Below are positions 2,598 to 59,754 of a DNA stretch of 64,000 nt, piece after piece (within the stretch, counting starts at the first letter, position 1; every line of letters begins with the position of its first letter). The position numbers were made by a program, and so were the translations under genes. The notes below the pieces were generated by a model that was given only the letters and a program-made list of their open reading frames with translations, searched no databases and was not told where the DNA came from. Source of the stretch: Desulfitobacterium dehalogenans ATCC 51507 (GTDB lineage: Bacteria; Bacillota; Desulfitobacteriia; Desulfitobacteriales; Desulfitobacteriaceae); contig NC_018017.1 of the NCBI RefSeq assembly GCF_000243155.2, forward strand, positions 1,922,001 to 1,986,000, given 5' to 3'.

Positions 2598-5246
2598 CTA
2601 AGATCGTCGCAAGAAGGTTTTATAAATCTCCTTAAGAATCAGGGGAATAACAGCTAAGCTAAGGACGATACCCCAGTCTCTTAAGGACAGCATTTGCAGT
2701 TTAAAGGCGCTGGAGAGGAAGGGGACGGAGATGACCGTCAGCTGCAGTAGTAAGCCGACGATAATTGCTCCGATCAGATATTTGTTAGAGAAGAAACCTA
2801 GGGTGAAGATGGATTTAGTGGCGCTTCTCATGGCCAGAGAGTAGAAGAGCTGGGAAGCAGCCAGGACGACGAAGGCCATAGTACGGGCATAGGTGAGGAC
2901 ATCGTCGGGGATCGCCATGGAGCCTAAGGAATAACCGTATTCACGAAGTCCCACATAAAAGGCTACCAGGGTCAACGTGCCGATCAGTACACCGCCGATG
3001 ATGGCCCGGACCCCTGCTCCGTGGGCAAAGAAGCTTTCTTTGGGGTCACGGGGTTTTTGGCGCATGACTTCTTTATCCCCGGGATCGACCCCCAGGGCAA
3101 TGGCCGGCAGGGTATCAGTGATTAAGTTAATCCACAAAAGCTGAGTGGCGAGAAGAGGAACAGGCCAGAAAAAGAGAACCGAGAAGAAGATAGCGATAAT
3201 CTCTCCCAGGTTACAGGAGAGGAGGAAAATCACCGACTTCCTGATGTTGTTATAGATATTCCGGCCTTCCTCAATAGCATGGACGATGGTGGTGAAATTA
3301 TCATCGGTTAAGATCATATCCGCGGCACCTTTGGAGACATCGGTACCGGTTATCCCCATGGCTACTCCGATGTCGGCGTTTTTCAAGGAAGGAGCATCGT
3401 TGACTCCATCTCCCGTCATGGAGACGATGTTGCCATGGGATTTGAAGGCTTTGACGATTTTAACCTTGTGCTCCGGGGAAACCCGGGCAAAGACCCGCAG
3501 GCTGCCGATGCGTTCGGAAAACTCTGCATCGGACAATTCGTCGATTTCAGCGCCGGTCATGCTTTCCTCTATGGACTCAGCGATCCCTAATTCTTTGGCG
3601 ATAGCTACGGCGGTGTTTTTATGGTCTCCGGTAATCATAATCGGTGTGATTCCTGCCAGCTTGGCATCCCGGATGGAATCCTTGACTTCCAGACGGGGAG
3701 GATCGATCATGCCGACCATACCGAGGAGGGTAAGGTCCTGCTCCATCTCCTTGGGGCTGATCATGGTATCAACATCTTTATAGGCGGCACCCAGTACCCG
3801 CAGGGCAGCATCGGACATTTCATCAGCCATACGAAGGTACTCTTTCTTCATTTCTTCCGTGAGGGGGACTACTTTTCCTTCGACTAAAGCAGTGGTTGAG
3901 ATTTTGAGAAGGTTATCAATAGCTCCTTTGGTATGTACCCGGTACCCTCTATCTTCTTCATTAAGGGTGGACATGAGCTTGCGGTCGGAATCGAAGGGAT
4001 GTTCACCCACCCGCTTATGTTCGGCATTCAAGGTTTTTTTCCCCAGGTTAAAGCGATCCCCTAAGACCACCAAGGCAATCTCCGTAGGATCTCCTGTGCC
4101 CTGGCCATGTTCATAGGTAGCGTCCGAGCAAAGGACCAAGGTTTTCATCAGGTCTTTTTCCTGAAGGCTTGCGTTAAAACCGGAGCCCTCCCGGGGAACT
4201 TCCTGCAAATCGTTCAGTGTGTAATACTTAACCACGGTCATTTGGTTTTGGGTCAGGGTCCCGGTTTTATCTGAACAAATAATGTTTACGGAGCCCAAGG
4301 TTTCCACGGCGGGCAGCTTTTTGACAATGGCGTTGATTTTGGACATCCGGGTAACTCCCAGGGCCAGGACAATGGCGACAATGGCGGGAAGACCCTCGGG
4401 TATAGCGGCCACAGCTAAGCTAATGGCGGTCATGAACATCTCAAAGAGATCCCGTTTCTGGAAAAAGGAGATCACAAAGATGAGGACACAGATGCCGATG
4501 GCCAGATACCCCAAAACCTTCCCTAACTCTTCCATTCTTTTTTGCAGGGGGGTCATCTCATCAATCTCTTCGTCGAGAATCTTAGCGATTTTTCCGATCT
4601 CTGTTTCCATGGCGGTCCCCACCACTACCCCTTCCCCCCGGCCATAAGTGGCTAAGGTGGACATGAAGGCCATATTCACCTGATCGCCAAGGGGAGTTTT
4701 AGGGTCCTTAAGAGTTTCCTGGGCAATTTTTTCCGTGGGAACGGATTCACCCGTGAGAGCAGACTCTTCAATCTGGAGATTGGCGCTCTCAATAAGGCGC
4801 AGGTCTGCCGGGATAAAGCGGCCTGCGTCGATGAGGATGATGTCCCCCGGGACCAGTTCCTCAGATGAGATCTCCACGACTTCTCCATTCCGTCGGACCA
4901 GTGTCTTGGGTGTGCTCATTTGCTGCAAGGCTTCGATAGCTTTTTCCGCTTTGAATTCTTGGAACACCCCAATGACTGCATTGAGGACCACCACCAGAAG
5001 AATGATGATGGAGTCCACATATTCTCCGATAAACAGGGTGATCAATGCCGCGCCGATCAGAACATAAATTAGCATATCTTTCAATTGGGCGAAGAACAAA
5101 GCGATTAAGCTTTTCTTGGGTTTTCCTTTAAGCTTATTGGCTCCGTACTTCTCCAAACGGGTTTGGACTTCCTGGCTGGAAAGTCCGGTAGCAGGGTTCA
5201 CGTTGAGCTCTCGAAGTACTTCTTCTTGAGATTTGGCAAACCACAT
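2598..5246 (-). CDS. P-type (P2A) Ca2+-translocating ATPase
   Basis: About 882-residue cation pump of the SERCA/PMR1-like bacterial P2A group. Seen in order: cation ATPase N-domain, TGES actuator loop (~residue 166), the membrane helix motif PEGLPA (~283), the phosphorylation site DKTGTLT (~326), GDGVNDAP hinge, and the M5/M6 residues NLGE and NLITDTLPA that correspond to calcium ligands in SERCA. This points to Ca2+ (possibly Mn2+) export. A TTG at 5264 is also in frame, but the ATG at 5246 has an upstream GGAG and gives the family-like N-terminus MWFAKSQEEVL. It is transcribed after the CDF exporter gene with only ~35 bases between, so the two form a cation-export operon. Confidence 0.93.
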   Translation of the reverse strand: MWFAKSQEEVLRELNVNPATGLSSQEVQTRLEKYGANKLKGKPKKSLIALFFAQLKDMLIYVLIGAALITLFIGEYVDSIIILLVVVLNAVIGVFQEFKAEKAIEALQQMSTPKTLVRRNGEVVEISSEELVPGDIILIDAGRFIPADLRLIESANLQIEESALTGESVPTEKIAQETLKDPKTPLGDQVNMAFMSTLATYGRGEGVVVGTAMETEIGKIAKILDEEIDEMTPLQKRMEELGKVLGYLAIGICVLIFVISFFQKRDLFEMFMTAISLAVAAIPEGLPAIVAIVLALGVTRMSKINAIVKKLPAVETLGSVNIICSDKTGTLTQNQMTVVKYYTLNDLQEVPREGSGFNASLQEKDLMKTLVLCSDATYEHGQGTGDPTEIALVVLGDRFNLGKKTLNAEHKRVGEHPFDSDRKLMSTLNEEDRGYRVHTKGAIDNLLKISTTALVEGKVVPLTEEMKKEYLRMADEMSDAALRVLGAAYKDVDTMISPKEMEQDLTLLGMVGMIDPPRLEVKDSIRDAKLAGITPIMITGDHKNTAVAIAKELGIAESIEESMTGAEIDELSDAEFSERIGSLRVFARVSPEHKVKIVKAFKSHGNIVSMTGDGVNDAPSLKNADIGVAMGITGTDVSKGAADMILTDDNFTTIVHAIEEGRNIYNNIRKSVIFLLSCNLGEIIAIFFSVLFFWPVPLLATQLLWINLITDTLPAIALGVDPGDKEVMRQKPRDPKESFFAHGAGVRAIIGGVLIGTLTLVAFYVGLREYGYSLGSMAIPDDVLTYARTMAFVVLAASQLFYSLAMRSATKSIFTLGFFSNKYLIGAIIVGLLLQLTVISVPFLSSAFKLQMLSLRDWGIVLSLAVIPLILKEIYKTFLRRS

Positions 5247-13207: not shown

Positions 13208-13211
13208 TTAT

Positions 13212-14040
13212 CTCCAGGATTTTGCTTTCGGCGTTCACTCCATAAGCTGCGCGGAGCAATCTAATCGCTCAAGACCTCCGCTGCGTCGGGTACACCTGCG
13301 CCGCTAAGCAGTCTCTGTGGCATGGCGGCTTGGGCGAAACCCTCGCCCGGGTTTCGTGGCCAAATCGGCTCCTCGAAAGCACTGCTTTCGCACTTGTTCT
13401 CAATGGCTGGTTGGAAACGTCCTGTTTCCAACCCGACTCCGCTGCAGTCTTTTCGCGAAGATTGCTTACCTGCTCGCTTAGAATCCGTTCTCTGCCTTAA
13501 AGCAAAATCCTTGGGCTGTCTTTCGGGCAAGGGAGGCGTGGATGTAGGATAAAGCTATACAACCTGAGCCATCTTTTCATCATCTGCTGGTGCTATGTCA
13601 GCGGCATGGTTGGCTATTCTGAAAATAACCCCCGAAAAGACCTAAAAAAGAGTCGAAAAAAGACCCGCCAGCGTAGCTTTGCGCACAAGAGCGAACGATT
13701 TTCACTGTGTATAAGGCAGCTAAGGCTTCTGCTTCGCTTCACTCACCATAAGCCAAGCTTTCTTTAAGCGGAGGGGTGGTTGGGTCAACGAGGCTTTCTT
13801 AACATAGCGGAGCCACTGGTTCACATCAGGTATTACCCGGAGGTTTGGCGTCGAAAGTGTCCAGTGGACAGTTTCGCTCAAGGCGGCATTCCCCAAAGAA
13901 CGCTTATCCGCCGCAGATGCTGTTAAGAAAGCGAGTTGACCAACCCTGGAGCTATTGAGTACGTGAGCTCCGATGAAGAAAGCCTCCGGTGGAGGGTTTC
14001 AGGAGCTCACGCCCGAAGGTGCGTTGTGCGTAAAGCTACT
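13212..14040. repeat. Structured dispersed repeat, copy 1 (two domains)
   Basis: Gene-free 0.8 kb region that matches 58927-59677 in ordered blocks with variable linkers. Domain 1 (13214-13514) is closed by long-range arms CCAGGATTTTGCTTT / AAAGCAAAATCCTTGG and contains a perfect 9-bp hairpin at 13410-13432 (GTTGGAAAC/GTTTCCAAC). Domain 2 (13673-14039) is closed by 16-bp arms (13673-13688 / 14024-14039), holds an inner ~25-bp paired arm (13778-13804 / 13921-13945), and a hairpin at 13853-13875. Several paired positions change together between copies, pointing to selection on structure. A third stem at 13945-14015 (GTGAGCTCC/GGAGCTCAC) is only in this copy. I see no convincing protein in it. 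Whether it is an RNA, a MITE-like element or both is open. Confidence 0.8.
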
Positions 14041-14120
14041 ACCTGACCCGGATCACGTTTTTCACCCCCTGCTAGTACCGTCTGAGCAGCGTGGTGGGCT
14101 ATTTTGAAGGTGTGGAGCGA

Positions 14121-39455: not shown

Positions 39456-39542
39456 GCGAGTGTGGCGGAACAGGCAGACGCGACGGTCTCAAAAACCGTT
39501 ATCTTTACGGATGTGTCGGTTCGATTCCGACCACTCGCACCA
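39456..39542 (+). tRNA. tRNA-Leu (anticodon CAA)
   Basis: 87-base class II tRNA including an encoded CCA. The acceptor stem GCGAGTG pairs with CACTCGC; the anticodon loop CTCAAAA gives CAA (reads UUG); a long variable arm (TATC...GATG) and the T-arm GTCGG-TTCGATT-CCGAC are clear. The terminator at 39554 follows. Confidence 0.97.
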
Positions 39543-58925: not shown

Positions 58926-59678
58926 TCTCCAGGATTTTGATTACACCGGTCGCTCCATAAGCTGCGCGGACAAAACTAACGCGAAAAGCCCACCGCTCCG
59001 TCGGGTGCCCGCCCAAATCACTCCTGCTCAATGGGCGGTTGGAAACGTCCTGTTTCCAACCCGACTCCGCTGCGTGCTTCTCGCGAAGTTTTGTTTCCGC
59101 TCGCTTAAATTCACTTCCCTTGTGTAAATCAAAATCCTTGGGCTGCCTTTCGGGTCTGAGTGGGCGGGGCGTTGTGTGAGTTGTGGGAGCTGTGGGGCAA
59201 GCTATCTTATCCAAGCCGCTTTTTCCGTCTTTACCGACGCCGCTTGAGGCGGCAAGGTCGGCGATTAAGCAAGGCTCTGAAGAAAGCCTGAGCTGACCCC
59301 GGAAATGTCTCGCAAAGAGCGTCAGATCCTCGGGGCTCCAGAGAAGAACTTAAAGAAACCCGCAAGACGTAGCTTTACGCAACAAAAGGGAACGGATTTC
59401 ACTGTGTATAAGGCAGCTAAGGCTTCTGTTTCGCTTCACTCACCATAAGCCAAGCTTTCTTTAAGCGGAGGGGCGGTCAGGTTAACGAGGCTTTCTTAAC
59501 GAAGCGGAGCCACGGTTAGCATGCAGAAAACAGCGGGGTTTGGCGACGAAAGTGTCCAGTGGACAGTTTCGCTCAAGGCGGCATTCCACAAAGCATGCTT
59601 ATCCGCCGCAGATGCTGTTAAGAAAGCGAGTGAACCGGCCCTGGAGCTATGGAGAGATCGTTGTGCGTAAAGCTACGC
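58926..59678. repeat. Structured dispersed repeat, copy 2 (two domains)
   Basis: Same element as 13212-14040, same direction. Domain 1 (58929-59141) is closed by CCAGGATTTTGATT / AAATCAAAATCCTTGG and has the identical hairpin GTTGGAAAC/GTTTCCAAC at 59038-59060. Domain 2 (59369-59676) is closed by GTAGCTTTACGC / GCGTAAAGCTAC arms, with the inner paired arms 59475-59500 / 59617-59640 and the hairpin at 59548-59570. Linkers differ in length and sequence from copy 1. It separates mutM from the ABC-F gene; both flanking genes have their own ribosome sites and intact ends. Minus-strand open frames here are shadows. Confidence 0.8.
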
Positions 59679-59754
59679 GACCCGAAGGTTCGTCATGCAC
59701 AACGCTAGGCGACCCAAGCAAACGATATAGAGTTGTAACAAAGGAGTTATCGCT

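Follow-up and report, generated by a model that had tools for sequence, protein, structure and literature searches.

A family of large folded repeats, paired in outward orientation, in Desulfitobacterium dehalogenans and its relatives

A repeat that occurs twice in the window, the whole 64,000-nt stretch of Desulfitobacterium dehalogenans ATCC 51507 analysed here (bases 1,922,001-1,986,000 of a genome that is a single 4.32-Mb contig), belongs to a new family of large, folded bacterial repeats that numbers about 72 copies in the genome. Among these copies pairing, and not sequence, is preserved, and selection thus acts on the folded shape. In window positions, copy 1 (13212-14046) is flanked by convergent genes and copy 2 (58927-59692) by tandem genes, which read like mutM and the gene for an ABC-F ATPase. 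We consider it probable that the family consists of non-autonomous, extragenic, structured giant repeats of the Desulfitobacteriaceae, similar to REPINs and BIMEs and recognised as a folded single strand. A search of the open-access literature, which does not prove priority, found no earlier account of Desulfitobacterium repeats.

A full element consists of two related units of about 200 nt, D1 and D2, arranged as an inverted pair with their sense strands pointing outward. Each unit combines a long closing stem, conserved internal boxes and stacked variable helices; D1 additionally has a branch that bears two hairpins, one invariant and the other variable, and optional hairpin arms have been gained or lost among copies. 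The two elements in the window contain the following features.

13212-13520, minus strand: copy 1 unit D1, carrying two additional inserted hairpin arms (profile match 13208-13522)
13409-13432, minus strand: copy 1 near-invariant D1 hairpin
13521-13669, no strand: copy 1 linker between the inverted units
13670-14046, plus strand: copy 1 unit D2, carrying additional hairpin arms (profile match 13660-14050)
58927-59146, preferred sense minus: copy 2 unit D1 (domain 1 of the earlier note), about 220 nt, from covariance model R1, fold z-score and covariation
58931-58942 / 59127-59138, minus strand: copy 2 D1 closing stem
58938-59130, minus strand: match of covariance model R1 in copy 2 D1, 203 bits
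58950-58963, minus strand: copy 2 D1 box B, minus sense AGCTTATGGAGCGA, common to D2 box B
58970-59094, minus strand: copy 2 D1 variable helix, arms 58970-58977 (ACAAAACT) and 59087-59094 (AGTTTTGT), with several complementary versions among copies
59011-59036, minus strand: copy 2 D1 inner stem, arms 59011-59015 and 59032-59036, paired in 38/38 copies with several pair types
59037-59060, minus strand: copy 2 near-invariant D1 hairpin GGTTGGAAAC-GTCCT-GTTTCCAAC, 72 genomic copies, in one family only among 82 genomes of the class
59106-59116, minus strand: copy 2 D1 box A, in minus sense homologous to GAACGGATTTA, common to D2 box A
59147-59361, no strand: copy 2 variable linker, with a small GC-rich hairpin, from linker comparison
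59362-59692, plus strand: copy 2 unit D2 (domain 2 of the earlier note), with two optional hairpin arms, from wobble polarity on the plus strand and fold z-score
59368-59381 / 59664-59677, plus strand: copy 2 D2 closing stem
59390-59399, plus strand: copy 2 D2 box A (GAACGGATTT), conserved
59645-59657, plus strand: copy 2 D2 box B (AGCTATGGAGAGA), conserved

The linkers between inverted units measure about 10-245 nt between model ends. Optional hairpin arms (for example, GACGAAAGTGTCC..GGACAGTTTCG) are located at fixed insertion points, 59412-59463 and 59548-59613 in copy 2 and 13288-13357 and 13374-13398 in copy 1, and there are many matches to the arm GACGAAAGTGTCC..GGACAGTTTCG in Desulfosporosinus genomes. 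A small hairpin repeat (CTTTTTCATC..CTGCTGGTGCCGC..GCGGCATGGCCGGCTAC..CTGAAAAAGACC) is found in the linkers (59147-59361 and 13521-13669) and just outside many elements, and is possibly a third, separate repeat unit.

We now turn to the covariation of the paired positions. Across 38 D1 copies of this genome, 98.8% of cells were paired by the structure and the covariation was 0.163, compared to 0.060±0.004 after shuffling (0/500) and at most 0.045 with slid arms; here and in the sets below, the alignments scored were also those used to predict the structure, which favours it on paired cells, and shuffling and sliding correct for this only in part. The corresponding covariation of 37 D2 copies was 0.093 versus 0.073±0.002 (0/500). 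Covariation also held in a diverse set of 24 D1 copies taken from five or more genomes, with a value of 0.265 versus 0.097±0.007 (0/500; slid controls at most 0.043), and 21/49 pairs were changed on both sides with pairing kept. A stricter selection, 17 copies with less than 85% identity, showed double-sided Watson-Crick changes at 31/57 pairs. A single D1 helix appears in the complementary versions CAAAACT/AGTTTTG, GCAATCT/AGATTGC, CCGTTCT/AGAACGG, CCAGACT/AGTCTGG and GGAATCT/AGATTCC. The fold z-score of copy 2 was -9.5 for D1 on the minus strand and -2.8 for D2. The view first proposed from the two window copies, that selection acts on a folded single strand and not on its sequence, is well supported by the covariation and by the z-score of D1.

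The proposal had been based on three stems in which paired bases differ between copies 1 and 2, and their coordinates and letters are correct: the D1 closing stem (AGGATTTTGCTTT at 13216 and AAAGCAAAATCCT at 13499 in copy 1; AGGATTTTGATT at 58931 and AATCAAAATCCT at 59127 in copy 2), the inner stem (GGCCA 13358-13362 and TGGCT 13404-13408 versus GCCCA 59011-59015 and TGGGC 59032-59036) and an arm of domain 2 (GGTC..GACC in copy 1 versus GGTT..AACC in copy 2). Variation without pairing had been set beforehand as the refuting condition, and we searched for it in 38 D1 and 37 D2 copies. As evidence, the three stems are unequal. The inner stem keeps its pairing while changing, with all 38 copies paired at both positions (GC 32, CG 4, AT 1 and GT 1; at the next pair, GC 24 and CG 14). 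The closing-stem pair is not compensatory; seven of the 38 copies differ from C-G, and copy 2 is the only one of these that pairs (CG 31, AT 1, CT 2, TT 1, CA 1, gap 2). The domain-2 arm covaries weakly, with 27 of 37 copies paired (CG 17, TG 5, TA 4, GC 1) and 10 unpaired (GA 7, GG 1, CC 1, CA 1). When the two window copies of D1 are compared at 58 consensus pairs, 48 are the same and 10 differ, six by double Watson-Crick changes, three by wobble-type changes and one by a broken pair. The clearest compensatory case, absent from the earlier note, is GCAATCT/AGATTGC versus CAAAACT/AGTTTTG, in minus-strand sense.

The two units, domains 1 and 2 of the earlier note, do not form one folded RNA but are two inverted, related units on opposite strands. 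Adjacent pairs were inverted with their sense outward in 86/86 cases in three genomes and at 6/6 Desulfosporosinus loci scanned, for a total of 92/92 in the Desulfitobacteriaceae, where one of the six loci (L213) is perhaps a second copy of another (L134), with identical scores. By reading of translations, the outward pair at the Desulfosporosinus loci lies between genes for a Gfo/Idh-like oxidoreductase and an acyltransferase; among L134, L137, L146, L148 and L075, some have the well-conserved D1-type unit as the left member of the pair and others as the right.

Homology between D1 and D2 is indicated by their ends. Two boxes are common to D1 on the minus strand and D2 on the plus strand: box A (GAACGGATTTA) lies within the 5′ closing stem, and box B (AGCT-ATGGAGTGA) precedes the 3′ closing stem. 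When the reverse-complemented D1 was compared to D2, the 5′ segments were matched by 1 and 7 of 5000 shuffles and the 3′ segments by 11 and 15 of 5000, and the same comparison on the opposite strand scored far lower. The end segments alone are significant; the whole-length consensus alignment is not (64/1000 shuffles). Scanning the window with R1, a model built from D1 only, yielded no convincing match to D2 (E 0.11), and the homology therefore rests on the two motifs with their order and position, together with the Desulfosporosinus pairs. In the latter, R1 finds a diverged partner on the opposite strand at 28-63 bits, and these sequence matches are the best evidence that the two units share an origin.

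A G·U pair on the folding strand appears as A·C on the other strand. In D2 the plus strand is favoured by 91:27 minority cells (p = 3e-9), where the counts are cells and not independent events. In D1 the minus strand is favoured by 83:46 on the union of pairs, and weakly, by 33:20 (p = 0.10), on the least biased set, the pairs predicted from both strands. Neighbouring units lean in opposite directions, which argues against a simple mutational strand bias. The folded molecule may be either RNA or single-stranded DNA.

The same polarity bears on an origin by mutation without selection. Quasi-palindrome correction is a known mutational process in which template switching copies one arm onto the other, and the changes here do occur in matched blocks within helices. 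However, that process is strand-symmetric, yet the wobble pairs of D2 strongly favour one strand and those of the neighbouring D1 tend towards the other; moreover, arms 100-200 nt apart remain matched while loops and boxes are invariant, and pairing is preserved across genera. Quasi-palindrome correction is already disfavoured as the origin, and we regard it as very unlikely.

The 24-mer hairpin of D1 is present in 72 copies in this genome and in 49, 16, 4 and 13 copies in relatives. D1 and D2 occur together at 55 sites of this genome and D1 alone at 17; the measured D1 and D2 stretches total 38.8 kb, or at least about 0.9% of the genome. When single-unit loci were scanned with R1 for a hidden partner, only L114 and L121 had one and the rest were single. 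The hairpin was found in 11/82 genomes of the class, all of one family, in which R1 matches 33/45 genomes and 6/9 genera. Named records with the hairpin are from Desulfosporosinus and two Bacillota/Clostridiales MAGs.

None of the 72 D1 copies is inside a gene, as predicted by a simple codon-usage method, and the median distances to flanking genes are 70 and 91 bp. Thirteen copies are in convergent gaps, and divergent gaps are depleted (3/70 versus 16/71 baseline gaps, p = 0.002). In a related species, G003, both window sites are empty, with gaps of 63 and 69 bp, and G002 has no element between gpmI and eno. The elements resemble MITEs in being non-coding, multi-copy and absent from the same sites in relatives. 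No autonomous relative was found. Empty sites were too diverged to read any target-site duplication.

With its inverted ends, variable middle, many copies and empty sites, the pair could also represent the folded termini of a larger autonomous transposon that has lost its enzyme gene here, leaving MITE derivatives. We consider such an origin quite unlikely; no gene-containing pair was found around the known units in three genomes, the trmD operon and not a transposase lies between a lone D2 and the next pair, and searches of plasmids and phages gave no match to the element.

Sites and their contents have different histories. Of 36 examined sites, 26 are common to G002, and present-day movement is consequently slow or absent, which counts against a mobile element. 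At 25 shared sites, the orthologous copy was the best match in only three, and identity was 0.87, compared to 0.83 between random pairs and 0.92 with the best paralogue. The pairs that differ at shared sites comprise 99 double Watson-Crick changes, 39 wobble changes, 15 broken pairs and 5 others. The site is kept while its content is exchanged, indicating that stems, of which a limited range of matched versions exists, are replaced as matched modules. The changes are therefore not independent point events, and independent compensatory events are fewer than cell counts suggest.

The main rival to a REPIN/BIME-like family is an RNA function at the level of mRNA. The units might be transcribed within UTRs and operon spacers as a functional structured RNA family, where they would bind a protein or set mRNA processing or stability, and the outward pair would ensure that any read-through transcript carries one sense unit. 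The covarying base pairs of a functional RNA are present here, in a large fold with an invariant hairpin loop and conserved internal-loop boxes; the wobble pairs of D2 follow one strand; and elements occur in housekeeping operons (the rimM/ylqC spacer; gpmI-eno) and between tandem genes. An RNA function would likewise be compatible with the strict outward layout and the invariant loops. Nonetheless, we judge it unlikely, as orientation relative to tandem genes is even (28 same, 26 opposite), the same sites are empty in a related species, no regulon-like gene set is apparent and content is swapped freely at a site. Large Rfam RNAs such as OLE, HEARO and GOLLD are similar in size and in their multi-helix folds supported by covariation, but the repeats differ from them in copy number and in inverted pairing. 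No Rfam family matched the element at gathering or relaxed thresholds. The sole gathering-level match in the window is a tRNA gene (39456-39539), and one partial T-box-like match at another locus (L129) is far from the element.

We return to the REPIN/BIME-like reading. In REPINs, the doublet has been proposed as the mobile unit and compensatory hairpin changes are common (Bertels and Rainey 2011, PMC3116915). REPs are palindromes of 20-40 bp with an unpaired GTAG or CGTC tag (Di Nocera 2013, PMC3733652), many are tied to RAYT (Y1_Tnp) genes (PMC3116915; PMC3733652), and Firmicutes are absent among the phyla with tagged REPs in one survey (PMC3733652). Like REPIN and REP doublets, the repeats are extragenic, dispersed and inverted (92/92 outward, 0/72 in genes), have a predicted single-stranded DNA or mRNA fold and compensatory changes, and also occur as single units. 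Unlike REPs, the units are about 200 nt long and branched; D1 is tagless, and the GTAG of D2 sits inside its closing stem. No association with RAYT genes (Y1_Tnp, PF01797) was found, since no element is near any Y1_Tnp locus scanned; this genome has two degenerate Y1_Tnp loci, and G003 and G009, with 16-22 element copies, have no Y1_Tnp domain at all. Membership in the REPs is rejected on unit size, the missing tag and the lack of an associated Y1 transposase. At a separate locus (L078), an IS200-like TnpA gene that is not related to the repeats is broken by one TAG.

If the repeats are REPIN/BIME-like, the conserved boxes and the hairpin loop would allow a trans-acting factor to recognise the unit when folded as single-stranded DNA or RNA, and this factor would copy or insert the pair, much in the way proposed for RAYTs and REPINs. 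Whole stem modules would then be swapped by recombination or gene conversion among copies, and selection on recognition of the fold would purge copies that lose pairing. Scans for the Y1_Tnp domain and of the loci found no mobilising enzyme. It is conceivable, though rather unlikely, that the family represents a mobile or domesticated element of a kind not described before. In such an element, recognition would be of the large, branched, RNA-like fold instead of a short palindrome, the unit would always be duplicated into an outward inverted pair, matched stems would be exchanged between copies as modules, and the enzyme would be unrelated to Y1 transposases. The family adds a well-supported large structured repeat to the Firmicutes and offers a natural experiment, with dozens of copies of one fold per cell and matched stem versions exchanged between sites. 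It raises the question of which protein spreads or uses a fold of about 200 nt without a REP transposase.

Two further systems are similar in part. Enterobacterial BIMEs, as portrayed in PMC2817692, are likewise intergenic mosaics in which inverted structured units alternate, separated by variable spacers; they differ in unit size and complexity, and elements here always have exactly one, outward orientation. Among the bcr repeats of Bacillus cereus, bcr1-bcr3 are MITE-like, and bcr10 and bcr18 have conserved RNA structure (PMC3446304, available part). They too are large intergenic Firmicute repeats with conserved secondary structure, often within transcripts, whereas outward pairing and module swapping are not described for them in that part of the source; the comparison is by description only (PMC3446304).

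In one ribosomal operon (L056), whose genes by translation are rplS, trmH-like, trmD, rimM, a KH protein, rpsP and ffh, two insertions of the family are located at 981-1312 and 3298-3930, and one of them is a lone D2.
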